Positions 26,379-62,896 of a stretch of DNA of 64,000 nucleotides are shown here, piece after piece; positions within the stretch are counted from its first letter, which is position 1; every line of letters begins with the position of its first letter. The translations under genes and the position numbers were made by a program. Origin of the DNA: Owenia fusiformis (Eukaryota > Annelida > Polychaeta > Sabellida > Oweniidae); the NCBI GenBank assembly GCA_903813345.2, contig CAIIXF020000004.1, forward strand, positions 18,151,513 through 18,215,512, read 5' to 3'. Under the pieces are notes generated by a model. That model searched no databases, was not told where the DNA came from, and worked only from the letters and a program-made list of their open reading frames with translations.

Positions 26379-28308
26379 AACACATGGGTATGGTTTTGTA
26401 TAGTATATTCTATCAATCTGTAATATACTGCAGTAGGGGGTCTACACATGGGTATGGTTTTGTAGAGTATATTCTATCAATCTGTAATATACTGCAGTAG
26501 AGGGTCTACATATGGGTATGGTTTTGTAGAGTATATTCTATCAATCTGTAATATACTGCAGTAGGGGGTCTACACATGGGTATGGTTTTGTAGAGTATAT
26601 TCTATCAATCTGTAATATACTGCAGTAGGGGGTCTACACATGGGTATGGTTTTGTAGAGTATATTCTATCAATCTGTAATATACTGCAGTAGGGGGTCTA
26701 CACATGGGTATGGTTTTGTAGAGTATATTCTATCAATCTGTAATATACTGCAGTAGGGGGTCTACACATGGGTATGGTTTTGTAGAGTATATTCTATCAA
26801 TCTGTAATATACTGAAGTAGGGGGTCTACACATGGGTATGGTTTTGTAGAGTATATTCTATCAATCTGTAATATACTGCAGTAGGGGGTCTACACATGGG
26901 TATGGTTTTGTAGAGTATATTCTATCAATCTGTAATATACTGCAGTAGGGGGTCTACACATGGGTATGGTTTTGTATAGTATATTCTATCAATCTGTAAT
27001 ATACTACTGCAGTAGAGGGTCTACACATGGGTATGGTTTTGTAGAGTATATTCTATCAATCTGTAATATACTGCAGTAGGGGGTCTACACATGGGTATGG
27101 TTTTGTAGAGTATATTCTATCAAACTGTAATATACTGCAGTAAGGGGTCTACGCACGGGTATGGCTTTGTATAGTATATTCTATCAATCTGTAATATACT
27201 ACTGCAGTAGAGGGTCTACACATGGGTATGGTTTTGTAGAGTATATTCTATCAATCTGTAATATACTGCAGTAGAGGGTCTACACATGGGTATGGTTTTG
27301 TAGAGTATATTCTATCAATCTGTAATATACTGCAGTAGTGGGTCTACACATGGGTATGGTTTTGTAGAGTATATTCTATCAATCTGTAATATACTACTGC
27401 AGTAGAGGGTCTACACATGGGTATGGTTTTGTAGAGTATATTCTATCAATCTGTAATATACTGCAGTAGGGGGTCTACACATGGGTATGGTTTTGTATAG
27501 TATATTCTATCAATCTGTATATACTGCAGTAGAGGGTCTACACATGGGTATGGTTTTGTAGAGTATATTCTATCAATCTGTAATATACTGCAGTAGTGGG
27601 TCTACACATGGGTATGGTTTTGTAGAGTATATTCTATCAATCTGTAATATACTGCAGTAGTGGGTCTACACATGGGTATGGTTTTGTATAGTATATTCTA
27701 TCAATCTGTAATATACTGCAGTAGGGGGTCTACACATGGGTATGGTTTTGTATAGTATATTCTATCAATCTGTAATATACTGCAGTAGGGGGTCTACACA
27801 TGGGTATGGTTTTGTATAGTATATTCTATCAATCTGTAATATACTGCAGTAGGGGGTCTACACATGGGTATGGTTTTGTAGAGTATATTCTATCAATCTG
27901 TAATATACTGTAGTAGGGGGTCTACACATGGGTCTGGTTTTGTAGAGTATATTCTATCAATCTGTAATATACTGCAGTAGGGGGTCTACACATGGGTATG
28001 GTTTTGTATAGTATATTCTATCAATCTGTAATATACTGCAGTAGGGGGTCTACACATGGGTATGGTTTTGTAGAGTATATTCTATCAATCTGTAATATAC
28101 TGCAGTAGGGGGTCTACACATGGGTATGGTTTTGTAGAGTATATTCTATCAATCTGTAATATACTGCAGTAGGGGGTCTACACATGGGTATGGTTTTGTA
28201 GAGTATATTCTATCAATCTGTAATATACTGCAGTAGGGGGTCTACACATGGGTATGGTTTTGTAGAGTATATTCTATCAATCTGTAATATACTGCAGTAG
28301 GGGGTCTT
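26379..28308. repeat. 64-bp satellite-like array
   Basis: About 30 highly uniform copies of a 64-bp unit: TACACATGGGTATGGTTTTG, TAGAGTATATTCTATCAATC and TGTAATATACTGCAGTAGGG. Variants such as TAGAG/TATAG and an extra ACT before CTGCAG (near 27005, 27200 and 27400, about 197 bp apart) mark a three-unit higher-order period. Its uniformity points to recent expansion or ongoing homogenisation. Confidence 0.96.
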
Positions 28309-34623: not shown

Positions 34624-35269
34624 CTATTGTAACATTCAGCCTAATTATGGTAGTGTGGATGTTGTTTAAAAGACTGTGTCACTGTGGGTCTCAGGGTATA
34701 CGTTAAATATACACGTGGGAAATCTGTACATAACAACTTATATACAATTAAATACAATAATACGTATATTGTGGCGTTTTAGCCCGTCAAAATAATACAT
34801 GAAAATCGATGTATTTGCTTTACTTCAGTTACTGAGGCACTAAGATTAAAGTCCTTTATATGCGATGATAGTTTTCGAAGCACTAATATTAGAGTCCTCT
34901 ATACGAAAATACTTGTACTCTCAATTGTCTCTTGAGCTCTGGACTTGTTCAATTCAGCTAGGTATAAATCTGGGAATAACAGTCTCTCATTACAGCTTCA
35001 GTGATTATGCCTTGGAATAACAGTCTCTCAATGAAGGCAAATCTCAAGCTGGCCTGAAATAAAATAACTAAGTCTGGAATCAACTTAGTCCTCAATCAGG
35101 CTGGAGTTATCTTAACTAAGTCTGGAAATGGCAAAGTTCCTCAATATGTGGAATCTACCCAAGATTCCCAGTAGTTCCCAAATAAACTAAGTGTCTCGTA
35201 CTTAGTTTCCATCAAAGTCATCCAGGTCGGGAGTGACACTATTCATCGTCCCCAACAGGCAACATCGAT

Positions 35270-35985
35270 GAAGATCCTCTAAGTTCCTCAATATGTGGAA
35301 TCTGCCTAAGATTCCCAGTAGCTTCTAAATCGATGAAGATCCTTTAAGTTCCTCAATAGGTGGAATCTGCCTAAGATTCCCAGTAGCTCCTAAATCGATG
35401 AAGATCCTCTAAGTTCTTCAATATGTGGAATCTGCCTAAGATTCCCAGTAGCTCCTAAATCGATGAAGATCCTTTAAGTTCCTCAATATGTGGAATCTGC
35501 CTAAGATTCCCAGTAGCTCCTAAATCGATGAAGATCCTCTAAGTTCTTCAATATGTGGAACCTGCCTAAGATTCCCAGTTGCTCCTAAATCGATGAAGAT
35601 CCTCTAAGTTCTTCAATATGTGGAATCTGCCTAAGATTCCCAGTAGCTCCTAAATCGATGAAGATCCTCTAAGTTCTTCAATATGTGGAATCTGCCTAAG
35701 ATTCCCAGTAGCTCCTAAATCGATGAAGATCCTCTAAGTTCTTCAATATGTGGAATCTGCCTAAGATTCCCAGTAGCTTCTAAATCGATGAAGATCCTCT
35801 AAGTTCTTCAATATGTGGAATCTGCCTAAGATTCCCAGTAGCTTCTAAATCGATGAAGATTCTCTAAGTTCTTCAATATGTGGAATCTGCCTAAGATTCC
35901 CAGTAGCTCCTAAATCGATGAAGATCCTCTAAGTTCTTCAATATGTGGAATCTGCCTAAGATTCCTGGTAGCTCCCAAATAAACT
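35270..35985. repeat. 65-bp tandem array in the left LTR
   Basis: Eleven or so copies of a 65-bp unit containing AAGTTCTTCAATATGTGGAA and CTAAATCGATGAAGATCC, differing at a few positions. The same array is at 42092-42807 in the right LTR. Confidence 0.93.
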
Positions 35986-36029
35986 AAGTGTCTCATACTT
36001 AGTTTCCATTAAGTCATTCAGGTTGAGTG

Positions 36030-39000
36030 AAAATATTCCAAGTTCCTCAACAGCTCCTCCAAATGAGCTAAGTTTCTGGTACTTATTCTCAATCAGGCTT
36101 GAGTTATATAAACAATGTAGGGAAATGACAGAGTTTCTCAGTCCAGCTGTATTTCCTCAATCAGGCTGGAATATTCCTCAATCCAGCAGAGTCCTTCAAA
36201 CAGGCTGGAGTTGTATCAACTATGTCGGGAAATGACAGAGTTTCTCAGTCCAGCTGTATTTCTTCAGTCAGACTGGAATATTATGAACTTTGTCTGGAAA
36301 TGGCAAAGTTCCTCAGTCAAGCAGTATTTCTTCAGTCAGGCTGGAATATTGTATAAACTATGTCGGGAAATGACAGAGTTTCTCAATCCAGCAAAATTCC
36401 TCAATCAGGCTGGTATATTATGAACTTTGTCTGGAAATGGCAAAGTTCCTCAAACCAGCAGTATTTCTTCAGTCAGGCCGGAATATTGTATAAACTTTGT
36501 CGGGAAATGACAAAGTTTCTCAATCCAGCAAAGTTCCTCAATCAGGCTGGTATATTATGAACTTTGTCTGGAAATGGCAAAGTTCCTCAAACCAGCAGTA
36601 TTTCTTCCGTCAGGCTGGAATATTATATAAACTTTGTCGGGAAATGACAAAGTTTCTCAATCCAGCAAAGTTCCTCAATCAGGCTGGTATATTATGAACT
36701 TTGTCTGGAAATGGCAAAGTCCCTCAAACCAGCAGTATTTCTTCCGTCAGGCTGGAATATTGTATAAACTTTGTCGGGAAGTGACAGAGTTTCTCAATCA
36801 GGCTGGAATATTATGAACTTTGTCTGGAAATGGCAAAGTTCCTCAGTCCAGCAGTATTTCTTCAGTCAGGCTGGAATATTGTATAAACTATGTCGGGAAA
36901 TGACAGAGTTTCTCAGTCCAGCTGTATTTCCTCAATCAGGCTGGAATATTCCTCAATCCAGCAGAGTCCTTCAAACAGGCTGGAGTTGTATCAACTATGT
37001 CGGGAAATGACAGAGTTTCTCAATCCAGCAAAGTTCCCCAATCAGGCTGGAATATCATGAACTTTGTCTGGAAATGGCAAAGTTCCTCAGTCCAGCAGTA
37101 TTTCCTCAATCAGGCTGGAATATTGTATAAACTATGTCGGGAAATGACAGAGTTTCTCAATCCAGCAAAGTTCCTCAATCAGGCTGGAATATCATGAACT
37201 TTGTCTGGAAATGGCAAAGTTCCTCAGTCCAGCAGTATTTCCTCAATCAGGCTGGAATATTGTATAAACTTTGTCGGGAAATGACAAAGTTTCTCAATCC
37301 AGCAAAGTTCCTCAATCAGGCTGGAATATCATGAACTTTGTCTGGAAATGGCAAAGTTCCTCAGTCAAGCAGTATTTCTTCAGTCAGGCTGGAATATTGT
37401 ATAAACTATGTCGGGAAATGACAGAGTTTCTCAATCCAGCAAAGTTCCTCAATCAGGCTGGTATATTATGAACTTTGTCTGGAAATGGCAAAGTTCCTCA
37501 AACCAGCAGTATTTCTTCCGTCAGGCTGGAATATTCTATAAACTATGTCGGGAAATGACAAAGTTTCTCAATCCAGCAAAGTTCCTCAATCAGGCTGTAT
37601 ATTATGAACTTTGTCTGGAAATGGCAAAGTTCCTCAAACCAGCAGTATTACTTCCGTCAACAAATTGATGAAAAATAATCGATCTAAAAAAATGGCTAAG
37701 TTTCTCAAGTTAGCTAAATTATGAAAAGAATAATGTAAGTTTCTCAATCTCAAAAATTGGCAAAGTTTCTCAAATTAACAAAAGAAAAACATTAAGTCTC
37801 TTGATCTCGAAATTGGCAAAGTTTCTCAAGTTAACAATAGAAAAACAAGTTACTAATAACACCTGAAAATACAAGTTTCTGGCACTCCTTCTCAATCAGG
37901 CTGGAATAATATAAACTAAGTCTGGTAATGACAAAGTTTCCCGGTCCAGCAGTAATTCTTCAATCGGGCTGAAATATTCTAAAACTTTGCCTGGAAATGA
38001 CAAAGTTTCTCAGTTCAGCAGTATTTCATCAAACGGGCTGGAATATTCTAAACTATGCCTGGAATTGACAAAGTTTCTCGGTCCAGCAGTATTTCTTCAA
38101 TCGGGCTGAAATATTCTAAAACTTTGCCTGGAAATGACAAAGTTTCTCGGTCCAGCAGTATTTCTTCAATCGGGCTGGAGTTATCTAGACTATGTCTGGA
38201 AATGACAAAGTTCCTCGATCCAGCAGTATTCCTTCAAACAGGCTGGAATATTCTAAACTATGTCTGGAAATGGCAAAGTTCCTCAGTCCAGCAGTATTTC
38301 TTCAGTCAGGCTGGAATATTGTATAAACTATGTCGGGAAATGACAGAGTTTCTCAGTCCAGCTGTATTTCCTCAATCAGGCTGGAATATTCCTCAATCCA
38401 GCAGAGTCCTTCAAACAGGCTGGAGTTGTATCAACTATGTCGGGAAATGACAGAGTTTCTCAGTCCAGCAAAGTTCCTCAATCAGGCTGGAATATTATGA
38501 ACTTTGTCTGGAAATGGCAAAGTTCCTCAGTCAAGCAGTATTTCTTCAGTCAGGCTGGAATATTGTATAAACTATGTCGGGAAATGACAGAGTTTCTCAA
38601 TCCAGCAAAGTTCCTCAATCAGACTGGAAAATTATGAACTTTGTCTGGAAATGGCAAAGTTCCTCAGTCCAGCAGTATTTCCTCAATCAGGCTGGAATAT
38701 TGTATAAACTATGTCGGGAAATGACAGAGTTTCTCAATCCAGCAAAGTTCCCCAATCAGGCTGGAATATCATGAACTTTGTCTGGAAATGGCAAAGTTCC
38801 TCAGTCCAGCAGTATTTCCTCAATCAGGCTGGAATATTGTATAAACTATGTCGGGAAATGACAGAGTTTCTCAATCCAGCAAAGTTCCTCAATCAGGCTG
38901 GAATATCATGAACTTTGTCTGGAAATGGCAAAGTTCCTCAGTCCAGCAGTATTTCCTCAATCAGGCTGGAATATTGTATAAACTTTGTCGGGAAATGACA

Positions 39001-39365
39001 AAGTTTCTCAATCCAGCAGTATTTCTTCCGTCAGGCTGGAATATGGTATAAACTATGTCGGGAAATGACAAAGTTTCTCAATCCAGCAAAGTTCCTCAAT
39101 CAGGCTGGTATATTATGAACTTTGTCTGGAAATGGCAAAGTTCCTCAAACCAGCAGTATTTCTTCCGTCAGGCTGGAATATTGTATAAACTTTGTCGGGA
39201 AATGACAAAGTTTCTCAATCCAGCAAAATTCCTCAATCAGGCTGGTATATTATGAACTTTGTCTGGAAATGGCAAAGTTCCTCAAACCAGCAGTATTTCT
39301 TCCGTCAGGCTGGAATATTGTATAAACTTTGTCGGGGAATGACAAAGTTTCTCAATCCAGCAAAT
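36030..39365. repeat. 68/137-bp tandem array in the left LTR
   Basis: Two blocks (about 36030-37660 and 37880-39365) of a roughly 68-bp unit, arranged as 137-bp pairs: one half carries CGGGAAATGACAGAGTTTCT, the other CTGGAAATGGCAAAGTTCC, both followed by CAATCAGGCTGGAATAT. The blocks are split by a diverged AT-rich stretch (37661-37880). Repeated overlapping 66-codon frames (MSGNDRVSQSS...) are a by-product: 137 is not a multiple of three and each frame stops after 1.5 units. Confidence 0.93.
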
Positions 39366-39972
39366 CTTCTAAGTTTCTCATCAATCCTCAAATGAAACGC
39401 TGGCACGGGAGATGTGTTCCAATCAAAAGTTGCTTACGTGTCTCATAGGAGCGATCCGGGCTCTGTATTTATACCCCAGACAGGTTTTGCACACGAACCT
39501 AACAAGTGATTAGTGGGCTGATGCAATACCTCGTCACCGGATGTAATCACTGAATCAGGATATTAGTTTCGTAAAAATAACTGGCTTCACTTACAAATCA
39601 CGATCTCGGCTTTTACACCCAATATCAATACATGTTTGGTACATAATCAACAAGAGTATAGTATAAACTCAATAAATATAACCATAAATGATCGCTATCT
39701 AGTCTAATTACGCTTCGATTTGATCGAATTGAAAGCAGGAAGTGATAATTTCTGTAAAATGATAGTCAAGAGTTCTCGATCAACCGTAACCATAGTCACT
39801 GGTAAAACTACCCGATCAACATTAACTAAATCTGAACTCGATAAAATAAAAAGTTGCTAACACCTCTGTAAGTACAAATAAAGTGCTTTAATCGATACTA
39901 CAATTAGAGATCTTAATAATCTCAACTGTGAAGCACTTAAATCAAAAAATTTAAAATCAAAATTTTGTTACA

Positions 39973-39986
39973 CTCCTCCAATCCAA
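39973..39986 (-). other. Polypurine tract of the LTR element
   Basis: Immediately next to the 3' LTR, the minus strand reads TTGGATTGGAGGAG up to the TGTAAC of the LTR. It is short and has interrupting T residues, but it is in the right place to prime plus-strand DNA synthesis. Confidence 0.5.
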
Positions 39987-40294
39987 TGATTTTGGTGTTA
40001 ACAACACCAAGCCAAAGTACAATAAAAAAATAACAAAATTTTGCTATCTTAGCTATCCTACAAAATACAATCCTACAATTTTCTAACCTCGAGGTTAACT
40101 AGCTTTCAATATAATGTACAGTGTAGATTCTAAACTCTGGCTTATCTCAAACCCTAACACTAGATATCTAACTATTTGAATGTCTAATTCTGTGTACATT
40201 AATAACTTTTCACAACTCTCAGCTAAATGTCAACTTCACATATAGGACAAAATCATACTCATCCTAAATGTCTTGTTTGAAGCTCACTATCGAG

Positions 40295-41448: not shown

Positions 41449-42091
41449 GTGTAACATTCAGCCTAATTATGGTAGTGTGGATGTTGTTTAATAGACTGTG
41501 TCACTGTGGGTCTCAGGGTATACGTTAAATATACACGTGGGAAATCTGTACATAACAACTTATATACAATTAAATACAATAATACGTATATTGTGGCGTT
41601 TTAGCCCGTCAAAATAATACATGAAAATCGATGTATTTGCTTTACTTCAGTTACTGAGGCACTAAGATTAAAGTCCTTTATATGCGATGATAGTTTTCGA
41701 AGCACTAATATTAGAGTCCTCTATACGAAAATACTTGTACTCTCAATTGTCTCTTGAGCTCTGGACTTGTTCAATTCAGCTAGGTATAAATCTGGGAATA
41801 ACAGTCTCTCATTACAGCTTCAGTGATTATGCCTTGGAATAACAGTCTCTCAATGAAGGCAAATCTCAAGCTGGCCTGAAATAAAATAACTAAGTCTGGA
41901 ATCAACTTAGTCCTCAATCAGGCTGGAGTTATCTTAACTAAGTCTGGAAATGGCAAAGTTCCTCAATATGTGGAATCTACCCAAGATTCCCAGTAGTTCC
42001 CAAATAAACTAAGTGTCTCGTACTTAGTTTCCATCAAAGTCATCCAGGTCGGGAGTGACACTATTCATCGTCCCCAACAGGCAACATCGAT

Positions 42092-42807
42092 GAAGATCCT
42101 CTAAGTTCCTCAATATGTGGAATCTGCCTAAGATTCCCAGTAGCTTCTAAATCGATGAAGATCCTTTAAGTTCCTCAATAGGTGGAATCTGCCTAAGATT
42201 CCCAGTAGCTCCTAAATCGATGAAGATCCTCTAAGTTCTTCAATATGTGGAATCTGCCTAAGATTCCCAGTAGCTCCTAAATCGATGAAGATCCTTTAAG
42301 TTCCTCAATATGTGGAATCTGCCTAAGATTCCCAGTAGCTCCTAAATCGATGAAGATCCTCTAAGTTCTTCAATATGTGGAACCTGCCTAAGATTCCCAG
42401 TTGCTCCTAAATCGATGAAGATCCTCTAAGTTCTTCAATATGTGGAATCTGCCTAAGATTCCCAGTAGCTCCTAAATCGATGAAGATCCTCTAAGTTCTT
42501 CAATATGTGGAATCTGCCTAAGATTCCCAGTAGCTCCTAAATCGATGAAGATCCTCTAAGTTCTTCAATATGTGGAATCTGCCTAAGATTCCCAGTAGCT
42601 TCTAAATCGATGAAGATCCTCTAAGTTCTTCAATATGTGGAATCTGCCTAAGATTCCCAGTAGCTTCTAAATCGATGAAGATTCTCTAAGTTCTTCAATA
42701 TGTGGAATCTGCCTAAGATTCCCAGTAGCTCCTAAATCGATGAAGATCCTCTAAGTTCTTCAATATGTGGAATCTGCCTAAGATTCCTGGTAGCTCCCAA
42801 ATAAACT
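42092..42807. repeat. 65-bp tandem array in the right LTR
   Basis: Exact counterpart of the left LTR array, shifted by 6822 bp, with the same unit number and order of variants. Confidence 0.93.
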
Positions 42808-42851
42808 AAGTGTCTCATACTTAGTTTCCATTAAGTCATTCAGGTTGAGTG

Positions 42852-45800
42852 AAAATATTCCAAGTTCCTCAACAGCTCCTCCAAATGAGCTAAGTTTCTG
42901 GTACTTATTCTCAATCAGGCTTGAGTTATATAAACAATGTAGGGAAATGACAGAGTTTCTCAGTCCAGCTGTATTTCCTCAATCAGGCTGGAATATTCCT
43001 CAATCCAGCAGAGTCCTTCAAACAGGCTGGAGTTGTATCAACTATGTCGGGAAATGACAGAGTTTCTCAGTCCAGCTGTATTTCTTCAGTCAGACTGGAA
43101 TATTATGAACTTTGTCTGGAAATGGCAAAGTTCCTCAGTCAAGCAGTATTTCTTCAGTCAGGCTGGAATATTGTATAAACTATGTCGGGAAATGACAGAG
43201 TTTCTCAATCCAGCAAAATTCCTCAATCAGGCTGGTATATTATGAACTTTGTCTGGAAATGGCAAAGTTCCTCAAACCAGCAGTATTTCTTCAGTCAGGC
43301 CGGAATATTGTATAAACTTTGTCGGGAAATGACAAAGTTTCTCAATCCAGCAAAGTTCCTCAATCAGGCTGGTATATTATGAACTTTGTCTGGAAATGGC
43401 AAAGTTCCTCAAACCAGCAGTATTTCTTCCGTCAGGCTGGAATATTATATAAACTTTGTCGGGAAATGACAAAGTTTCTCAATCCAGCAAAGTTCCTCAA
43501 TCAGGCTGGTATATTATGAACTTTGTCTGGAAATGGCAAAGTCCCTCAAACCAGCAGTATTTCTTCCGTCAGGCTGGAATATTGTATAAACTTTGTCGGG
43601 AAGTGACAGAGTTTCTCAATCAGGCTGGAATATTATGAACTTTGTCTGGAAATGGCAAAGTTCCTCAGTCCAGCAGTATTTCTTCAGTCAGGCTGGAATA
43701 TTGTATAAACTATGTCGGGAAATGACAGAGTTTCTCAGTCCAGCTGTATTTCCTCAATCAGGCTGGAATATTCCTCAATCCAGCAGAGTCCTTCAAACAG
43801 GCTGGAGTTGTATCAACTATGTCGGGAAATGACAGAGTTTCTCAATCCAGCAAAGTTCCCCAATCAGGCTGGAATATCATGAACTTTGTCTGGAAATGGC
43901 AAAGTTCCTCAGTCCAGCAGTATTTCCTCAATCAGGCTGGAATATTGTATAAACTATGTCGGGAAATGACAGAGTTTCTCAATCCAGCAAAGTTCCTCAA
44001 TCAGGCTGGAATATCATGAACTTTGTCTGGAAATGGCAAAGTTCCTCAGTCCAGCAGTATTTCCTCAATCAGGCTGGAATATTGCATAAACTTTGTCGGG
44101 AAATGACAAAGTTTCTCAATCCAGCAAAGTTCCTCAATCAGGCTGGAATATCATGAACTTTGTCTGGAAATGGCAAAGTTCCTCAGTCAAGCAGTATTTC
44201 TTCAGTCAGGCTGGAATATTGTATAAACTATGTCGGGAAATGACAGAGTTTCTCAATCCAGCAAAGTTCCTCAATCAGGCTGGTATATTATGAACTTTGT
44301 CTGGAAATGGCAAAGTTCCTCAAACCAGCAGTATTTCTTCCGTCAGGCTGGAATATTCTATAAACTATGTCGGGAAATGACAAAGTTTCTCAATCCAGCA
44401 AAGTTCCTCAATCAGGCTGTATATTATGAACTTTGTCTGGAAATGGCAAAGTTCCTCAAACCAGCAGTATTACTTCCGTCAACAAATTGATGAAAAATAA
44501 TCGATCTAAAAAAATGGCTAAGTTTCTCAAGTTAGCTAAATTATGAAAAGAATAATGTAAGTTTCTCAATCTCAAAAATTGGCAAAGTTTCTCAAATTAA
44601 CAAAAGAAAAACATTAAGTCTCTTGATCTCGAAATTGGCAAAGTTTCTCAAGTTAACAATAGAAAAACAAGTTACTAATAACACCTGAAAATACAAGTTT
44701 CTGGCACTCCTTCTCAATCAGGCTGGAATAATATAAACTAAGTCTGGTAATGACAAAGTTTCCCGGTCCAGCAGTAATTCTTCAATCGGGCTGAAATATT
44801 CTAAAACTTTGCCTGGAAATGACAAAGTTTCTCAGTTCAGCAGTATTTCATCAAACGGGCTGGAATATTCTAAACTATGCCTGGAATTGACAAAGTTTCT
44901 CGGTCCAGCAGTATTTCTTCAATCGGGCTGAAATATTCTAAAACTTTGCCTGGAAATGACAAAGTTTCTCGGTCCAGCAGTATTTCTTCAATCGGGCTGG
45001 AGTTATCTAGACTATGTCTGGAAATGACAAAGTTCCTCGATCCAGCAGTATTCCTTCAAACAGGCTGGAATATTCTAAACTATGTCTGGAAATGGCAAAG
45101 TTCCTCAGTCCAGCAGTATTTCTTCAGTCAGGCTGGAATATTGTATAAACTATGTCGGGAAATGACAGAGTTTCTCAGTCCAGCTGTATTTCCTCAATCA
45201 GGCTGGAATATTCCTCAATCCAGCAGAGTCCTTCAAACAGGCTGGAGTTGTATCAACTATGTCGGGAAATGACAGAGTTTCTCAGTCCAGCAAAGTTCCT
45301 CAATCAGGCTGGAATATTATGAACTTTGTCTGGAAATGGCAAAGTTCCTCAGTCAAGCAGTATTTCTTCAGTCAGGCTGGAATATTGTATAAACTATGTC
45401 GGGAAATGACAGAGTTTCTCAATCCAGCAAAGTTCCTCAATCAGACTGGAAAATTATGAACTTTGTCTGGAAATGGCAAAGTTCCTCAGTCCAGCAGTAT
45501 TTCCTCAATCAGGCTGGAATATTGTATAAACTATGTCGGGAAATGACAGAGTTTCTCAATCCAGCAAAGTTCCCCAATCAGGCTGGAATATCATGAACTT
45601 TGTCTGGAAATGGCAAAGTTCCTCAGTCCAGCAGTATTTCCTCAATCAGGCTGGAATATTGTATAAACTATGTCGGGAAATGACAGAGTTTCTCAATCCA
45701 GCAAAGTTCCTCAATCAGGCTGGAATATCATGAACTTTGTCTGGAAATGGCAAAGTTCCTCAGTCCAGCAGTATTTCCTCAATCAGGCTGGAATATTGTA

Positions 45801-46187
45801 TAAACTTTGTCGGGAAATGACAAAGTTTCTCAATCCAGCAGTATTTCTTCCGTCAGGCTGGAATATGGTATAAACTATGTCGGGAAATGACAAAGTTTCT
45901 CAATCCAGCAAAGTTCCTCAATCAGGCTGGTATATTATGAACTTTGTCTGGAAATGGCAAAGTTCCTCAAACCAGCAGTATTTCTTCCGTCAGGCTGGAA
46001 TATTGTATAAACTTTGTCGGGAAATGACAAAGTTTCTCAATCCAGCAAAATTCCTCAATCAGGCTGGTATATTATGAACTTTGTCTGGAAATGGCAAAGT
46101 TCCTCAAACCAGCAGTATTTCTTCCGTCAGGCTGGAATATTGTATAAACTTTGTCGGGGAATGACAAAGTTTCTCAATCCAGCAAAT
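42852..46187. repeat. 68/137-bp tandem array in the right LTR
   Basis: Counterpart of the left LTR array, shifted by 6822 bp; one T-to-C change (37263 to 44085) was noticed between the two. Confidence 0.93.
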
Positions 46188-47523
46188 CTTCTAAGTTTCT
46201 CATCAATCCTCAAATGAAACGCTGGCACGGGAGATGTGTTCCAATCAAAAGTTGCTTACGTGTCTCATAGGAGCGATCCGGGCTCTGTATTTATACCCCA
46301 GACAGGTTTTGCACACGAACCTAACAAGTGATTAGTGGGCTGATGCAATACCTCGTCACCGGATGTAATCACTGAATCAGGATATTAGTTTCGTAAAAAT
46401 AACTGGCTTCACTTACAAATCACGATCTCGGCTTTTACACCCAATATCAATACATGTTTGGTACATAATCAACAAGATTATAGTATAAACTCAATAAATA
46501 TAACCATAAATGATCGCTATCTAGTCTAATTACGCTTCGATTTGATCGAATTGAAAGCAGGAAGTGATAATTTCTGTAAAATGATAGTCAAGAGTTCTCG
46601 ATCAACCGTAACCATAGTCACTGGTAAAACTACCCGATCAACATTAACTAAATCTGAACTCGATAAAATAAAAAGTTGCTAACACCTCTGTAAGTACAAA
46701 TAAAGTGCTTTAATCGATACTACAATTAGAGATCTTAATAATCTCAACTGTGAAGCACTTAAATCAAAAAATTTAAAATCAAAATTTTGTTACACTATGA
46801 ATAATAATATATATCATTTATCAAATGAACGAGAAAATCCGAGCGGAGATCAACCCTTTCAAGATATTTAAAGAAATGTGTCTCAGAGGAAGACACATAT
46901 TTCTACTAATTGGTCCAAATTGCTCAAACAAGGTCAAATGTATATGTGTCATTATAAAAATTGCGAAATTCATTTCAAGGTTCAGCATGGCCATCATGAG
47001 AAATCTGGTGGCACTTTTACAATTCCTTTCTAGATTCTAATTGAGAACAGAAAAACGTCATGATAATTATTAAAATGTTTATTCACTGGTTTATTTTGAA
47101 TTGTGAATATAGCTACGAGTTCATAAAAACACCGACTTTGTAAAACCTACTATTCCGTTTTTGTGAATTTGTACATTAACCTTATCCGATTGTAGAAGCC
47201 CTTTATATGTATTAAAACCAAAACCGCGAAAACCAAAGTAAGTTTCAGAGTTCATTGCATTTAGTGGAGATACGATAAATTCACCAACCTATCTTTGGAC
47301 TGTGGCTGGAGGGTCGTGATAATTAAAGACAATAAGTGTATAATGAAGCCCTATCAGATGTGAAACATAATTATAATGTCAAAGGTAATGTAGGGCGTGA
47401 CTAAAAAACACATTTTTAAGATACCTTAAAACTATCCTCTGGACTTTGTTTACTTTATATCCCCTCCGTGTAATTTATATACATGAATGGAGAACAGGTG
47501 TAAGACAAGGATAACGGCCTTAC

Positions 47524-51949: not shown

Positions 51950-54317
51950 TACGATTCGAACATGAAAACTCACCAAAATGTTTCGAATATTCATTATGGT
52001 CCGCCATTACTACGGCCCGCCGTTATGACGTCACACATTACACGTATTACCAGGGGTTTTGTTCGCGAATATACCCCGGGTGAAATGTTGACTTTGTTAA
52101 AAGTTTATAGAAGGCGTGAATACAGTCATGTTCGAATCAGTTTTAGTTGAAGAGTCTGAATAAATAAATTTCTGAAAACTTGTCAAGGACGTGAGCCGCC
52201 TATGACATCATATAAGCCATCCATGCATCGCTTGTTTTATACCTGCTTAGATAAGTTTTTCCACAATGTGCCTCGTATTTAGAATACACCATGGTGTTTT
52301 TGGTGATCCTATGGATTCACTGAACTCATTTTATTTAAAGAACACATAAGCACTATGCAAGTTAAAAGACAAAGGAGATGTCCCTCCAATGTTTATACAC
52401 ATTTGTGGCATCATATCTAACACCTATTCGTGATGTACACTCAATAAAGTCAAAATGCGGTTTTATCAATTTCCCATGCATATGATCTGTTCCTTAAATT
52501 TTAGTAATGTTCTTTTCACAAGATTGTAAGATTCTCAGAGATTAATTTAAAGTTATTGAGAAATTAGTCAGAAAAATAAGATTTGAATTTATACTCTAGC
52601 TTTGATTATAGGGATATTGCTTGACATAATACTTCAAGTTTAACAGGAATAATTTTTCTTTCTTAAATTATCAAAGTACTGAGATCCTCATCACATCAGG
52701 AACTCATTTGTCTTTCTTATATTCATTTGACAAAGTCGTTTTAAAGAAATGTTATAGCTTTGAAACACTGTATCTATCATCTACATTCTCAGACAAAGAC
52801 TCTATCAGGCAAAATGGCAATGTCGTTTTTATTTTATTTTATCGTTTGTATGTAGTGACAGCCGCCATTTTTTCACTTCAACATTTAGAATCGTGATTTT
52901 TGGTCTTATTTTCTAACGAAAATTTCCAAAACCCACAAGTAATGATCGAGATATTGGTTCGAATCTTTTGGACTGTTTTCATTGTTGGAAAATATCGAGT
53001 TTCAATCCTGGGAGCCAATCCTCTTTGCTTTTGAAGTATATATCTAGAATGAAATTAATAAATTAGTTTTATAATTCATAGCTCTATAAGGCTTATTTTT
53101 AACTATTTCCTGCATGGCTTCTAATTAGGTACGATCCATTAGTCTCTGTTTTATAGAAAGTACATTAAAAGGAAACGAAGGATTAGAGATAGGATGATCG
53201 TGACCTTTTTAAAAACTGCCTTAATTTTACAATTGTCATGAACGAAGTCTGGCATTTCAATTTAAGTTTAGGAATGCTGTCAAAGTATAAACAGTTGTGG
53301 CATAACAAAGTTAGTTTAGTTAGGTGGAGTTGGGGGGTGGGGGGTAAACGATGGTTACGTTAGCGATTAGTGTTGATTTTTTAATATTCAAGTGAAAGAC
53401 AAATGAACACATTACGTCAAAAGAGGGGAGGGGTCAGACCATAACACAATTAACTTCATTTTCCCATGACTATTGATGATTAGACATCATCCCTCATTTT
53501 GTAATATTCCTGGTAAACTCTCTTGGCAGTGTCTGAGATAGAGTTGTCGAAGTCTAACATAACAATACCATGGAGTGAAATAGACCATAATTGGAGTGAA
53601 ATATACCATAACTCTTCTCTTGGACAGTAAATTAACAACTTAGCTATTTAGTATAAAGATATGTATTTCAAACAAATATAAATAAATGGTTTGTGAAATA
53701 GCACCTACGGAATTTGTATAGTCAACACACTGCAAACTGATTCTAAACCAAGCCAGTACAAAATACAAAATAAATATGATGAAAGCAAATTTTCTTTTAA
53801 ATTAGTAATACTGGTGGATCATAAAAATCTGACCATGATTTCAATTTTTTGTGTCCATTGTCCTGCCATTTTGTTTAGAATCACACATAACACTGTAATA
53901 CTGCATTGGTGACTATAGAAATGTAATTTGCATTGATTTGAAATGTCATTTTTGTAATTTTATCAGTAATAATATAGTCTCAAAACCTTGCTCTCATACC
54001 TTTGCATTCATTTATCTATCATGTATATAGTCTAAGCACAGCCATGCATGAGACAGGTAAGGTTAAAACTGGCTCACAGAAATGTTCTAGTGGAGGGGGT
54101 CACAAGGGCATGTGGCTAGACTACTGAAATGTTATGAAATAATATCCATTTCCTTTTTTAAATAAAAGTAGAATTAGGATTAAACAATTAATTTGCACTT
54201 TCCGGATTTTAAGTGAGATCATTTTGCTAGAAGACATTAAACTGTCCATGTCTGTCTTTGCTTCATTCATATTCCTGAGATCACTTAGTGTAAACTTTCA
54301 CCAGAGAGTACATATTA
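51950..54317. other. Non-coding, downstream of CDC20
   Basis: Would contain the CDC20 3' UTR on the minus strand, but no canonical AATAAA signal was noticed close to the stop codon. No other gene seen. Confidence 0.4.
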
Positions 54318-57300
54318 TCATCTGATTGATCCTCTCATCAACATGGCCTTCCCCATATGTCCAGAGTCTTTCACTTTTCCACACACAGACTTCTTGGTTT
54401 TATCGACAGCAAAACATTTCCACAAACGAATTGTCTCATCTGCTGCAGCACTAGCAACAGTGGTGCCATCTGGTGATAGAGCCAGAGAGAGAACACGTGC
54501 AGAATGACCTGTGATTAAATATAAAGTAAATGCGATGTCTAGATTTTAATTCATTTATTGTATGTGACACATAAATCTAGTAATGTTGGTTTATGTTTGT
54601 TTTCAAAATGTAGTAGATAACTTGGTATTGCCCAGTGTTCTACATTCCTCAAATGTTGCCCATTGCCATTGCAAAGGAATGTTACATATTACCAAAAAAA
54701 CAGTAATTTCCTATACTGTCAAGTTCTCATAAATGCATCTAATATTTTGGTATTTTTGTAAAAACATTTATTTTGCACCATATACAGGGTGGTCCAAAAA
54801 AAGTGAACCCTTGCAACCGGCTGTATTTCACTTATTACCTGCAGGAATCCTTTCATAGTTTCCAATGTTGCAGAGGAAGGTCTAAAATTTTTGTTGGTAC
54901 TATACATTTTTCTTAGTATTGAAATTTGCAGAAATAATAAACCCTAACGAAACATCACTAAAAATGGGTAAAATGTGAACTTCAATCTGCGATTCTTCAA
55001 CCCTTCAACAATCTTCCCATGGAAATCTTTTAAGCCAGAGTCTGGGAAACCTAATGTTTTCTGACTTTGTTTGGTTTTGAATCCCACACAATATGATGTA
55101 AAAGTTAGCATCCTACCTCTGTTAGTTGCAAAGTTATTGTGATCAAAAGAAGTGTTCAATGCTTCCAAAGACGAGAACATCTTCCAGTGAAATCGCAACA
55201 TAACCCTGGTTTTTGTAAGATTTTATATGAAGGGCTTCTCAGATTTTGGGTCACAAGGGGTAACTTTGCCTCCCTCTACCCGTTGGTTAGGTAACATGCC
55301 TCTAAACTGTTGAATGGTTAAAACAGCTTCAAAATGGTCAATAAAAGTGTGAAATGTGTTTTCTGCTCAAATAGTGTCCCATTTGTCATATGGTAGAGTT
55401 TAAACTTATAATCTCTCACTGAAAGCTTTTTTAAGATCATCTAATGTGTATCAACAATTTCCATCAATCACATTGGTAAAATTTTGCACAAAATCTAATT
55501 TGAGGCATGTTTGTTTAAGTGTAAGAGAATAAATGATGATGTCAACAAAAATTTTAGACCTTTCTCTACAAGATGTGATAATATGAGCAAATTCATGCAT
55601 GTATTAAGGAAAATATAGCCTGTTGCAGGGTTCACTTTTTTGGACCACCCTGTATTTATTTCACTGGCAAAGGGTGCCAATTCATGTAGACATTGCAGAG
55701 CATAGTAATTAGAAACTGACGGATGTATGGAACACATGAGAACAAATATCAGTCCGCAGAACCAAACACACAGGCCAGTACTATATTGATACTTTGAAAT
55801 ATTTTCAATGTTACACACCCAAAACTCTGCTACTCATAGATGGGTACAGTGTACTTCCATATATTAAAATATATTAAAGTAACTCACCTGTTAACTCTGC
55901 TACTCTGGTCATATACAGTATGGGTACTTCCATATATTAAAGTAGCTCACCTGTTAACTCTGCTACTCTGGCCATAGATGGGTACTTCCATATATTAAAG
56001 TAGCTCACCTGTTAACTCTGCTACTCTGGTCATAGATGGGTACTTCCATATATTAAAGTAGCTCACCTGTTAACTCTGCTACTCTGGTCATAGATGGCTA
56101 CTTCCATATATTAAAGTAGCTCACCTGTTAACTCTGCTACTCTGGCCATAGATGGGTACTTCCATATATTAAAGTAGCTCACCTGTTAACTCTGCTACTC
56201 TGGTCATATTCAGTATGGGTACTTCCATATATTAAAGTAGCTCACCTGTTAACTCTGCTACTCTGGTCATAGATGGGTACTTCCATATATTAAAGTAGCT
56301 CTTCTGTTAACACTGCTACTCTGGCCATAGATGGGTACTTCCATATATTAAAGTAGCTCACCTGTTAACTCTGCTACTCTGGCCATAGATGGGTACTTCC
56401 ATATATTAAAGTAGCTCACCTGTTAACTCTGCTACTCTGGCCATAGATGGGTACTTCCATATATTAAAGTAGCTCACCTGTTAACTCTGCTACTCTGGTC
56501 ATAGATGGCTACTTCCATATATTAAAGTAGCTCACCTGTTAACTCTGCTACTCTGGTCATAGATGGCTACTTCCATATATAAAAGTAGCTCACCTGTTAA
56601 CTCTGCTACTCTGGCCATAGATGGGTACTTCCATATTTTAAAGTAGCTCACCTGTTAACTCTGCTACTCTGGCCATAGTTGGGTACTTTCATATATTAAA
56701 GTAGCTCACCTATTAACTCTGCTACTCTAGTCATAGTTGGGTACTTCCATATATTAAAGTAGCTCACCTATTAACTCTGCTTCTCTGGCCATAGATGGGT
56801 ACTTCCATATATTAAAGTAGCTCACCTGTTAACTCTGACCATAGATGGGTACTTCCATATTCTAAAGTAGCTCTTCTGTTAACTCTGCTACTCTGGCCAT
56901 AGATGGGTACTTCCATATATTAAAGTAGCTCACCTGTTAACTCTGCTACTCTGGCCATAGATGGGTACTTCCATATATTAAAGTAGCTCTTCTGTTAACT
57001 CTGCTACTATGGTCATCAATATGCACTTCCATATATTAAAGTAGCTCACCTGTTAACTCTGCTACTCTGGCCATAGATGGGTACTTCCATATATTAAAGT
57101 AGCTCTTCTGTTAACACTGCTACTATGGTCATCAATATGCACTGCCATATATTAAAGTAGCTCACCTGTTAACTCTGCTACTCTGGCCATAGATGGGTAC
57201 TTCCATATTTTAAAGAAGCTCACCTGTTAACTCTGCTACTCTGGCCATAGATGGGTACTTTCATATATTAAAGTAGCTCACCTTTTAACTCTGCTACTCT

Positions 57301-60300
57301 GGCCATAGATGGGTACTTCCATATATTAAAGTAGCTCTTCTGTTAACACTGCTACTATGGTCATCAATATGCACTTCCATATATTAAAGTAGCTCACCTG
57401 TTAACTCTGCTACTCTGGTCATATACAGTATGGGTACTTCCATATATTAAAGTAGCTCACCTGTTAACTCTGCTACTCTGGCCATAGATGGGTATTTCCA
57501 TATATTAAAGTAGCTCACCTGTTAACTCTGCTACTCTGGCCATAGATGGGTACTTCCATATTTTAAAGTAGCTCACCTGTTAACTCTGCTACTCTGGCCA
57601 TAGTTGGGTACTTTCATATATTAAAGTAGCTCACCTGTTAACTCTGCTACTCTGGCCATAGATGGGTACTTCCATATATTAAAGTAGCTCACCTGTTAAC
57701 TCTGCTACTCTGGCCATAGATGGGTACTTCCATATATTAAAGTAGCTCTTCTGTTAACTCTGCTACTATGGTCATCAATCTGCACTTCCATATATTAAAG
57801 TAGCTCACCTGTTAACTCTGCTACTCTGGCCATAGATGGGTACTTCCATATATTAAAGTAGCTCACCTGTTAACTCTGCTACTCTGGCCATAGATGGGTA
57901 CTTCCATATTTTAAAGTAGCTCACCTGTTAACTCTGCTTCTCTGGCCATAGATGGGTACTTCCATATATTAAAGTAGCTCTTCTGTTAACTCTGCTACTC
58001 TGGTCATAGATGGCTACTTCCATATATAAAAGTAGCTCTTCTGTTAACACTGCTACTATGGTCATCAATATGCACTTCCATATATTAAAGTAGCTCACCT
58101 GTTAACTCTGCTACTATGGTCATAGATGGGTACTTCCATATATTAAAGTAGCTCACCTGTTAACTCTGCTACTCTGGTCATAGATGGGTACTTCCATATT
58201 TTAAAGTAGCTCACCTGTTAACTCTGCTACTCTGGCCATAGATGGGTACTTCCATATATTAAAGTAGCTCACCTGTTAACTCTGCTACTCTGACCATAGA
58301 AGGGTACTTCCATATAGTAAGCTGATTCTGTGAGAAACCATGGCCTGAGAGCAACTCTTTGTAGTCCTTGTTCCACACTATAGAACACACCTGAAGAAAT
58401 ATGTACACGAAAGAATGAAAACACATGTTGCAGACACTCAGATGTCATGTTAAAGAACATAAATATACAAGGCATTAACATGCAAAATGTCACCAACTGC
58501 CATTTGTAACATTTGATACAGACGCTGACCACCAAACGCCAAACACCATTCACAAAAAAGTTGGAGTTGGTGGTAACTGGTAATATAAAAATGAATATTT
58601 TGACAGATATCTGCATGGAGAGATATTCTTAAGTAATTACATGTTTAATTACAAAAGCCCTTGTATTATCTTACCTACAAACTTTTCTACAAACTTTTCA
58701 TGACCAAATGTTATGGCATTAGGAGTGAGAAGCTATAATTAATAAAGACCTATTACATTTGTGAATACCTGAGAGTTTGTATCTGTACTGGCCAACATTG
58801 ACCCAGTTGTGATGTTCCAGAAATTGATGCAGCGATCAGCTGTACCACCTCCAGTTGCTAGGAGAGATGGTTGCCATGGACACCATGACAGTGCCTAAGA
58901 ACAACAATAAATGCGTTTAATATTTAAGAAATATAGACTGAAGAGCAGAGGTAATGTCGTCCAGTACAGCCGGCATATCGAGGCACAAATGTTTTCTGTA
59001 AAATAATACCATGGATTTTTTTTAGATAAACGACACATTGGTCCAAAAATCACAGATGTTCATAAGCGCAACTACATATGAACATTTACCTTGACAGCTG
59101 CCAGGTGTTGAGTGAAGGTATGTATTGGGGATGCGGATTCTTGCATGGTAGCTCCCCATATATTCACCAAGTTATCATTACCACCACTGCCAAGATGGCG
59201 GCCATCAGGTGACCAAGCAAGACCACACACCTCCTGGCTGTGATTGGCCAGTGTTCCAATATGGTGGTTAGCAACCCTGACGTCATGGTGATGTATTGCA
59301 CCTGATCGGCAGCCACTGTAATCAAATAACATAGTTACCAATAAGGTCAATCATCTGCTTCGACTGGAGTTTCTATAAAAAGATTATAATCCAATAAAAA
59401 TTCATATACTATAATTGTGAATTACATTGCTCTGTTGGTGTCTCTAGAGAATGCTATTTCTAGAACATAATCCATTTTCTTGAATATTTTCCATAGACTT
59501 TATATAAAAAGGCCCTCTTAAGATCTCCAACTTACAATAAACTTGATTTGTGGTGTTGCCTTACAGGTTTTACTGTAAAGGGAAAAAGTAAAGAACTCAC
59601 AGAGAATGATTACATTTTGTGGCTTACCTCGACAGTATGTAAGCATTCCATGCTAAACTTCCCACTCTTGCTGCATGCCCTGTCATTGTTCTCACCAACT
59701 TCTGAGCACCTACATCCCATAGCTGGAACATATGCAGCAATATAATATCAATTATACAACAATATCCTTCTATGGTAAAGTACATCATCCACCTCTTCTT
59801 ACTTTTATTAATACTGATTCCCCAAGTCATACTTTTTGTTATTTGATCATGCAATACTTTAGGAAAATGAAAGCTATCACTCTTAAAAATGGTATCACAA
59901 TTACATATGGAAAGCTAGTTCGAAGGTCAACAAAAAATACCATTGGTTTTTCAGCTTCTTGACAGACTAGTAAATAAGTGAATAATAAATAGTAGGTGGC
60001 ATACCTGTACAGCCCCTGTGCTAATACCAACAGCCAATATATTGCCTTCTTTGATTCATTGCATTCAACATACCTGTACAGCCCCTGTGCTAATGCCACA
60101 GTCAATATATTGCCTTTTTTGATTCATTGCATTCAACATACCTGTACAGCACCTGTGCTAATACCTACAGCCAATATATTGCCTTCTTTGATTCATTGCA
60201 TTCAACATACCTGTACAGCACCTGTGCTAATACCAACAGCCAATATATTGCCTTCTTTGATTCATTGCATTCAACATACCTGTACAGCACCTGTGCTAAT

Positions 60301-62896
60301 ACCAACAGCCAATATATTGCCTTCTTTGATGCATTGCATTCAACATACCTGTACAGCACCTGTGCTAATACCAACAGCCAATATATTGCCTTCTTTGATT
60401 CATTGCATTCAACATACCTGTACAGCACTTGTGCTAATACCAACAGCCAATATATTGCCTTCTTTGATGCATTGCATTCAACATACCTGTACAGCACCTG
60501 TGCTAATACCAACAGCCAATATATTGCCTTCTTTGATGCATTGCATTCAACATACCTGTACAGCACCTGTGCTAATACCAACAGCCAATATATTGCCTTC
60601 TTTGATGCATTGCATTCAACATACCTGTACAGCCCCTGTGCTAATACCAACAGCCAAAATATTGCCTTCTTTGATCCATTACATTCAACATACCTGTACA
60701 GCACCTGTGCTAATACCAACAGCCAATATATTGCCTTCTTTGATCCATTGCACGGATGAGACGTATTCATCCTGATTCTCAATTTCAAACAGTTGCGATA
60801 TACTTCCATCAGATGCATCCCAGATGTAGACAGCGCCCCCTAGGGCCACGACAAGGTGGTTGTTGGCAGACCAATGTAGCAGGTTCAGATCTGGAGTTGA
60901 GGGTGTATTTTTGATGTATTTTAATATGCATCTCTCTTCTGTATAGAGAATGTATCAAAATTGGATATCTTATATTTAATATGATATCTCTAACACATAG
61001 AATAACATTAAGCAGAGTACATACACAATCAGTGTGATTTCATACACGGTTTGTTCAAGTTTGCAGAATCGATGTTAGTAAAATGACATGTGTTCATGTG
61101 TATTTGTACTGTGAATGCATTGTTTCAGAATTACATTGAATAGAGTCCACAAATGCAAAAAAAGAAGAATGCAATAAACACATTCTAGTTTGAAATGCCC
61201 AGAATGCACCATATACAATGTCAATTTTAAAATATTTACGGGCTTGTAGTGATGCAAACCCAAAAAGCACACCCCACATTCACTATTGCTGGCTATGCCC
61301 CTTCATAGCTCCAATGTAATTGTTTTCTACATTCTTGAATACTTACAGTAATCATTGAGTAGTTCAGGGGCATCTAGCACTCTCTCAGCTTGTTGGGGAA
61401 TGAATCTGGTAGATGTGCTCTTGGGGGCTGTTGTCTTTGCTGCACTGTACAGAACCTTCAAACTGCTGATGTGGCCTAGGTACATAAAAAGATAACTGGT
61501 TTAAGCTCCTCATTTCCAAATCATTGTTAGTATGATTGCACATATGAAACACTGACTTGTATTGATCACTTTTGCTTTTTTTGAAATTTAGAACAACAAA
61601 TGTTAATGGCTGCACAATTCAGTCTATCTGATCTTATGAGAGATCCATGATTCAATTCAATCAAAATCAATCAAATCAAATGTTAAGAAAACAAAGAGTA
61701 GTCTTATTCCCTCCTTCTCACCCTCTTTTGCCTGTGGAGCTTTTTGTTTGAATGATAGGATTTTAGCATTTTGTTCTCCAACATTCTCATCAAGTTTGCG
61801 TTGATATTCAATTTTATTAGGACTCAAGGGGTCTTCATTTTCTTCATTGTTTAGCAGCCTGTAGTGACTGATGTCCATCTCTGTTGTGGTTCTGTTAGGT
61901 ATGAATCTGAAAAAGGAGTGGGATCATTTGACAATGGAATGTATCAATATATAATATCAATGGTTGCACTGTACTAATAACTCAGAGATACTGATACTGA
62001 TGTTCAGAGATATACTGAATGTCCTTCCCAGGAATTTTCTCAAGTGGGTGCGAAATTTCCATTTTCATAGCACTGTCCAAAACATGCTGATTTTTCAATG
62101 TGATTTTACTAAGATTTTTTCTTGCTTACTGTTAAAAGAATGGAGAAGATAAAATCTGAGGTCACAGCTTTGTCATAAATCATGGAATCGAGGTATCTAT
62201 GATCCTGATATAATTAAAGTATGCCATTGTAACAGACATAACAACAGTTACTGTTTGTGGAGCAAAATTTACTCTTCATACATACCCCACTATAGACCAG
62301 TAAATCACTTGTTCTGGTTATTCTGACATCACATATCATGTTAGAATAATGATGAAAGTGAACTTTACCTGTCTGAGGCACCCTGTGCTCCAGGTTTGCT
62401 TGTTGGGGTGTTCTTATTCGGAGTCTTTCCTCTCAGGCGGAACTTGCTTGTTGGAGTTTTAGAAGGGGTCTTTGATGGTCGAGCACTTGTTGGTGTATTT
62501 GGGGTCTTTTTATTTGGAGTTAGCTTCATTGTTAGAGGGTTGGCCGACTTTGGTCTACGTGGTGACAGACCCCTTGAATCATTCACTAGAACAAACTGAA
62601 CACTTTGAATTGGCTGAAGTGATGCATATTGCTTATTTGCATGTCCGGATATCTTCAAAAGGCTACTTGATTAATTGGTTTAGAATTACTGAATTTGACG
62701 ACAGACTTTTTTCTTTAAAGCTACAGTTCTTTGTTTGTATGTATCTGAGTATCTATGTACCTGCATCACTTAAGGAAAGAGTTCTCACTCCAGACTCCAG
62801 TGCTTTACGTTGCCACCGCATCATTGGACCTTTCTGTATAGGAGCATCCATCCTAACAGAGTCCTGTATGGCACTGTCCAATTGGAAGTGTGACAT
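54318..62896 (-). CDS. cdc20: CDC20, APC/C activator (10 coding exons, complete)
   Basis: Exons read on the minus strand: 62896-62761, 62585-62369, 61906-61722, 61475-61347, 60890-60694, 59722-59628, 59315-59090, 58894-58769, 58390-58273, 54508-54318. All introns are GT-AG, phases match, and the 1620 bases give 539 residues plus TGA. Seen: N-terminal RWQRK segment (27-31); Ser/Thr/Pro/Lys-rich tail (49-110) with many TP sites; C-box DRFIPNR (117-123); Mad2-binding-type segment AKILSFKQK (165-173); WD40 propeller from about 224 to 515 with GHSQEV-like and HHHDVRV blades; C-terminal Ile-Arg ending. These match the family: CDC20 recruits substrates to the anaphase-promoting complex and is held by Mad2/BubR1 at the spindle checkpoint. 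Human CDC20 is about 499 residues, so length fits. No KEN tripeptide was found; an RKAL D-box-like site is at 30-33. The ATG sits in a CCACCATG context. Introns 5 and 9 contain exon-junction repeat arrays, and intron 9 also holds a small transposon. Confidence 0.96.
54785..55652. mobile_element. Non-autonomous mariner/Tc1-like element in CDC20 intron 9
   Basis: Imperfect terminal inverted repeats of about 110 bp begin CAGGGTGGTCCAAAAAA at 54785 and end with the complement at 55652, flanked by TA on both sides. TA targets and CAGGGTG-type ends are usual for Tc1/mariner elements. The 868-bp body has no transposase-like reading frame, so it would need a partner in trans. It lies between CDC20 exons 9 and 10, just downstream (in gene direction) of the 58-bp array. 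Confidence 0.72.
55828..58272 (-). repeat. 58-bp tandem array made of the CDC20 exon 9/intron 9 junction
   Basis: About 42 units of about 58 bp directly follow exon 9. On the minus strand each unit has the last 43 bases of exon 9 (encoding roughly [14 protein letters not shown] plus one base) then about 15 bases of intron starting GTGAGCTACTTTAA. The true exon end is 58273, the copy attached to the rest of exon 9. Eight copies (near 56298, 56870, 56990, 57103, 57338, 57747, 57981 and 58037) have the donor GT changed to AA; several of these share linked changes in the neighbouring unit, a sign of amplification in blocks. Some units have a few bases inserted (55910, 56210, 57425). The copies lack an upstream acceptor, so they are not cassette exons. 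Read-through in the exon frame meets TAA 14 bases past each donor. Confidence 0.93.
58930..59012. mobile_element. Partial TATAGACC-family MITE in CDC20 intron 7
   Basis: One arm only: AAGAAATATAGACTGAAGAG, then GGTAATGTCGTCCAGTACA and GAGGCACAAATGTTTTCTGT, matching 51779-51852 with about 20% change. It lies between CDC20 exons 7 and 8. Confidence 0.65.
60002..60693 (-). repeat. 69-bp tandem array made of the CDC20 exon 5/intron 5 junction
   Basis: Ten extra units (one is 68 bp) follow exon 5, giving 11 donors with the real one at 60694/60693. Each unit on the minus strand has the final 57 bases of exon 5 (encoding roughly [19 protein letters not shown]) and the first 12 bases of the intron (GTATGTTGAATG). 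The donor CAG|GTATGT is kept in every copy. The unit nearest the exon shares the exon's GATCC variant, while more distant units have GATTC or GATGC, as expected for outward growth from the exon. Because 69 is divisible by three, long open frames of 259, 210 and 217 codons appear on both strands; they are by-products. In the exon frame, skipping a donor gives Val-Cys-stop. Confidence 0.94.
62278..62348. mobile_element. Partial TATAGACC-family MITE in CDC20 intron 2
   Basis: CTATAGACCAGTAAATCACT, TTGTTCTGGTTATTCTGAC and CATATCATGTTAGAAT match 51720-51777 at most positions. Only the outer segment of the element is present. Confidence 0.65.

Follow-up and report, generated by a model that had tools for sequence, protein, structure and literature searches.

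Minisatellites spanning exon-intron junctions in CDC20 and other genes of the annelid Owenia fusiformis

Minisatellites that lie across exon-intron boundaries are known from lancelets as mirages and have been described there in Adh3, the globin genes BflGb6 and BflGb9, troponin C, and PGBD5 (PMC3087553, PMC3902484). According to these two papers, RT-PCR and the Adh3 data indicate that mirages leave splicing undisturbed, and the arrays are unstable in length, with even somatic instability reported (PMC3087553, PMC3902484). In human segmental duplications, internal tandem repeats averaging 30 bp in four copies also occur at exon-intron boundaries (PMC2812944), and the Rogers model (PMC4974935), in which an intron arises when AGGT is duplicated in tandem, resembles the arrays of Owenia in that the duplication copies a splice signal. 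The literature that we searched contained no account of annelid mirages, and the passages seen of a recent earthworm metallothionein paper contain intronic minisatellites but none that span junctions.

The Owenia arrays that we describe here have boundary-spanning units, lie at donors or acceptors, and hold many copies with AG/GT, all of which they have in common with lancelet mirages, whose unit lengths of 10-160 bp overlap theirs. In CDC20, the units combine exon with adjoining intron (43+15 nt and 55+14 nt) and GT is present at 34/42 and 11/11 junctions, while further arrays, eight at donors and five at acceptors in addition to an 18-copy array in a KIF4-like gene, extend the structure to several genes. 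On the other hand, the CDC20 copy number reaches 42, compared with 2-7 given for the globin and PGBD5 mirages in the lancelet passages, and mirages have been seen in a few lancelet genes, whereas junction arrays are common across gene families in our Owenia sample. The host phylum also differs, although this is not a mechanistic criterion: Owenia is an annelid, and the mirage cases named in those passages are all from lancelets. The human repeats, which are likewise minisatellites over exon-intron boundaries, have their effect in young paralogues, where they alter splicing or create introns (PMC2812944), while CDC20 has an intact coding sequence and an intron that it shares with a paralogue. 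For CDC20, we considered and rejected intron gain through an AGGT duplication: no new intron is seen, and the paralogue, which lacks an array, carries an intron at the same position. The kind of structure is therefore already known, as the lancelet mirage, and the novelty appears to lie in the phylum, in the copy number, and in how often junctions seem to carry arrays.

Two donor arrays in CDC20

We analyzed a 64,000-nt stretch of Owenia DNA, referred to here as the window, in which the CDC20 coding region occupies positions 54315-62896 on the minus strand. In the assembly, the gene-specific portion of a published O. fusiformis syt1 primer (PMC8111721) has a single exact match, inside a synaptotagmin exon, which argues against a lancelet host; the elav1 forward primer, which may span an exon junction, has no match at up to 2 mismatches, and mitochondrial COX1 has none. 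Its 10 coding exons, whose boundaries were set by GT/AG junctions and homology (the second exon's acceptor by reading frame), lie on the minus strand at 62896-62761, 62585-62369, 61906-61723, 61475-61347, and 60890-60694 for exons 1-5 and at 59722-59628, 59315-59090, 58894-58769, 58390-58273, and 54508-54315 for exons 6-10. Human CDC20 is the best solved relative of the joined 10-exon protein (phmmer, 5g04_R, E 1.3e-165), which bears out the identity assigned to the gene in a preliminary description of this DNA; the acceptor placed there at 54508 is also correct. Read along the minus strand, the penultimate coding exon (exon 9; 58273-58390, minus strand) extends to base 58273, where its end and the following donor read ...GAGTTAACAG|GTGAGC, and its final 43 nt form the genuine copy of a repeat. 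The last intron (54509-58272, minus strand) is 3764 nt long, compared with 175-971 nt for the other eight introns between coding exons, and contains both the array built from this repeat, array 1, and an element with terminal inverted repeats. The element, at 54785-55652, is bounded by near-perfect inverted repeats (CAGGGTGGTCCAAAAAAAGTGAACCC), is flanked by TA, and resembles a mariner element or MITE.

Array 1 opens the last intron with 41 decoy copies of a 58-bp unit at 55830-58272 (minus strand; TRF and unit list). TRF reports it at 55869-58320 with a period of 58, 42.2 copies, and 91% matches, and the distal end, at approximately 55830-55870, is a degenerate partial copy. Each unit consists of the last 43 nt of exon 9 and the first 15 nt of the intron, so that both the roughly 42-fold array of exon end and donor and the 43+15 bp division of the unit, as first described, are confirmed by TRF, the 42 junctions, and comparison with exon 9. 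Most decoys (37/41) are 58 bp long, with three of 63 bp and one of 50 bp. When all 42 junctions are considered, the genuine one included, GT is kept in 34, made up of 30 that read CAG|GTGAGC and 4 close variants, and the other 8 read CAG|AAGAGC. Among the decoys themselves, 29 match the genuine CAG|GTGAGC exactly. The initial description of the copies as 5' splice sites holds for the 33/41 decoys with GT and fails for the 8/41 that read CAG|AAGAGC, which are not donors. Readthrough past the exon 9 donor would yield ...ELTGELL*, with TAA at intron nt 12-14, and any decoy, if used, would add an in-frame stop, as had been predicted.

A second donor array, absent from the preliminary account of CDC20, lies at 60000-60752 on the minus strand (array 2; TRF). 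It has a 69-bp unit in 11 copies, including the genuine exon end at 60694, and each unit joins 55 nt of exon end to 14 nt of intron start. All 11 junctions carry GT and read CAG|GTATG, and a TGA stop follows the donor at intron nt 7-9. Two of the nine CDC20 introns between coding exons are thus opened by copies of their own donor.

No exon junctions were evident at the other arrays of the 64-kb window, as judged without gene models there. A 64-bp minisatellite with 30 copies occupies 26380-28307 with no identifiable gene around it. In addition, 34651-40001 and 41473-46823 form a direct duplication (6822-bp offset, 99.6% identical over ~5.4 kb) that holds complex minisatellites and is either recent or an assembly duplicate.

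Junction arrays in other gene families

We surveyed chaperonin (PF00118) and kinesin (PF00225) genes in stretches centred on exons, together with six myosin (PF00063) stretches, with TRF period cut-offs of at least 40 in the chaperonin and kinesin sets and at least 30 in the myosin set, and judged whether arrays span junctions by inspecting the sequence and reading frame. Splice sites were spanned by 13 of the 27 arrays, 8 at donors and 5 at acceptors. Since these arrays belong to other gene families, the junction array is not peculiar to CDC20. The donor arrays comprise 154 bp x2, 48 bp x5, 28 bp x17, and 105 bp x2.4 in chaperonin genes, 82 bp x8 and 61 bp x14 in kinesin genes, and 34 bp x4 and 41 bp x4 in myosin genes; the acceptor arrays comprise 83 bp x9 and 96 bp x4 in chaperonin genes and 87 bp x3, 93 bp x4, and 64 bp x17 in kinesin genes. 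Beyond these 13, a KIF4-like gene carries an acceptor array of 159 bp x18 at a motor exon (G000:C2:23266345-23269188), which surfaced through a profile that matched the same 38 residues repeatedly and in which the genuine exon is the last copy. In every sampled gene whose array edge was read, the genuine exon forms the outer edge of the array, and copy numbers span 2 to 42.

Adh3 was considered as a mirage locus common to Owenia and lancelets and was set aside, as none of the arrays in the ADH region on contig C9 looks derived from an exon. Elsewhere on this contig (G000:C9:37986009-37994334), one myosin motor exon (profile residues ~25-84) recurs in a row of about ten further, unevenly spaced copies, which resemble the alternative exons of a muscle myosin gene.

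To ask whether junctions are over-represented, we fixed exon positions beforehand and compared the arrays with random placement. In the chaperonin set, 5/10 arrays fell on a junction compared with 1.12 expected (P=0.0017), and in the kinesin set, whose exon annotation is confined to the motor domain, 2/14 did so compared with 0.93 expected (P=0.24); with these pre-set exons, the two sets combined gave P=0.002. Of the arrays with at least 3 copies, 11/16 lie across a junction, for which the tail P would be 1.8e-6 even against an expectation of 15%; this count is descriptive, having been made after the sequences had been seen. The sample behind this enrichment is small and covers three gene families. 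Junctions may be preferred birthplaces of minisatellites in the Owenia genome, with mirages making up a large share of genic arrays, either as a mutational hot spot or through retention that aids exon recognition; we put the chances of this at somewhat under even. We judge that such a genome-wide preference, more than the CDC20 array itself, is the part worth following up.

Decoy divergence and the persistence of the arrays

In the 37 full-length decoys of array 1, divergence is 0.042 in the exonic part and 0.040 in the intronic part, and no codon-position constraint was seen when looked for. With equal divergence of the two parts and 8/41 donors lost, we found no selective constraint on the array 1 decoy sites. 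Identical units are spread along the array with no strong higher-order period, the pattern expected from turnover by exchange. Two sites distinguish the genuine exon 9 end from the decoy consensus, and at one of them the encoded residue is altered, with valine in the genuine exon and alanine in the decoys. Because human CDC20 also has alanine at this position, the decoys may keep an older exon 9 sequence. A CDC20 paralogue on contig C1 (G000:C1:56790284) conserves intron positions, including that of the last intron, and has no arrays.

We consider it probable that the CDC20 arrays are mirages, that is, near-neutral minisatellites that are tolerated as exon definition picks the outermost site. 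Such an array would be seeded by a tandem duplication that by chance spanned an exon-intron junction, and slippage or unequal exchange would then enlarge it, with the first copy staying the working exon end and the remaining copies becoming intronic. Only the outermost copy joins the rest of the exon, the first donor in donor arrays and the last acceptor in acceptor arrays, and in both array types this choice gives the shortest exon, which fits pairing across the exon. Under exon definition, the upstream acceptor would pair with the nearest downstream donor so that the exon-proximal site is used, and in acceptor arrays the correct site, the last acceptor, would be selected in like manner. Nearest-site pairing across the intron, on the other hand, would give the wrong site in donor and acceptor arrays alike. 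From this anatomy, we infer that the outermost site is used through exon definition. With the outermost site used and mis-spliced RNA carrying a premature stop and presumably being removed, the array would be close to neutral and its copy number would drift.

The near-neutral reading is favored by the equal exonic and intronic divergence of the decoys, the 8/41 without GT, the paralogue without an array, the donor and acceptor arrays in unrelated chaperonin, kinesin, and myosin genes, and the undisturbed splicing and unstable length reported for lancelet mirages. Counting against it, 29/41 decoy donors are identical to the genuine one. Moreover, a purely neutral, position-blind model leaves the junction excess (5/10 compared with 1.1, P=0.0017) unexplained, and a mutational bias toward junctions or selection for retention may be missing from it.

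One way to account for the excess is that exon-intron junctions are a mutational hot spot, for example through transcription- or chromatin-linked breaks, that seeds duplications which are neutral thereafter. This would refine the near-neutral explanation and not replace it. The junction enrichment in the chaperonin test and the 11/16 count are what it would produce, as is the presence of arrays at donors and acceptors alike. However, the sample is small, with three gene families, and the kinesin set by itself is not significant with pre-set exons; we put this proposal forward tentatively, with the balance leaning somewhat against it.

Retention by selection could also yield more junction arrays than random placement and the 11/16 share among arrays of at least 3 copies, if added U1 (or U2AF) sites strengthened the genuine site and so aided splicing. 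We think this unlikely, as the decoys are unconstrained, the paralogue has an intron at the same position without an array, and copy numbers vary from 2 to 42.

CDC20 is dosage-sensitive, and the preliminary description had raised the alternative that the decoys tune it, with internal donors used in some transcripts to introduce a stop that leads to their destruction and sets the CDC20 level. The in-frame stop from every decoy and the GT retained in 33/41 of them would suit such a role. A regulated poison-splicing array is not what the decoys indicate, as they are unconstrained, with equal divergence of their two parts and 8 donors lost; the paralogue also does without an array, and unrelated genes carry similar arrays, acceptor ones included. 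Splicing is, furthermore, reportedly undisturbed by lancelet mirages (PMC3087553). The tuning alternative is unsupported by these observations and appears very unlikely, and reliable choice of the exon-proximal donor fits the sequence better.

Finally, we think it highly improbable that a short repeat was falsely expanded in assembly: the copy number rests on one assembly, but the units fall into three length classes and differ by private variants scattered among them, which a stuttered copy would not show, similar arrays occur at unrelated loci, and the Owenia assembly is PacBio-based (PMC9977687).

Implications for splice-site choice and minisatellite birth

The choice among dozens of identical splice sites, each with its exon context, is normally studied in constructs, and the housekeeping genes of Owenia supply natural versions of it at donors and acceptors. 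In each case, the protein is preserved by the site whose use makes the exon shortest, as is predicted by exon definition and not by nearest-site pairing across the intron, and the arrays seem frequent enough for a test of how the correct splice site is chosen in cells. If junctions are preferred seeds, this would hint at how minisatellites arise and would provide raw material for new exons and introns. The Owenia arrays would also extend mirages from lancelets to another phylum.
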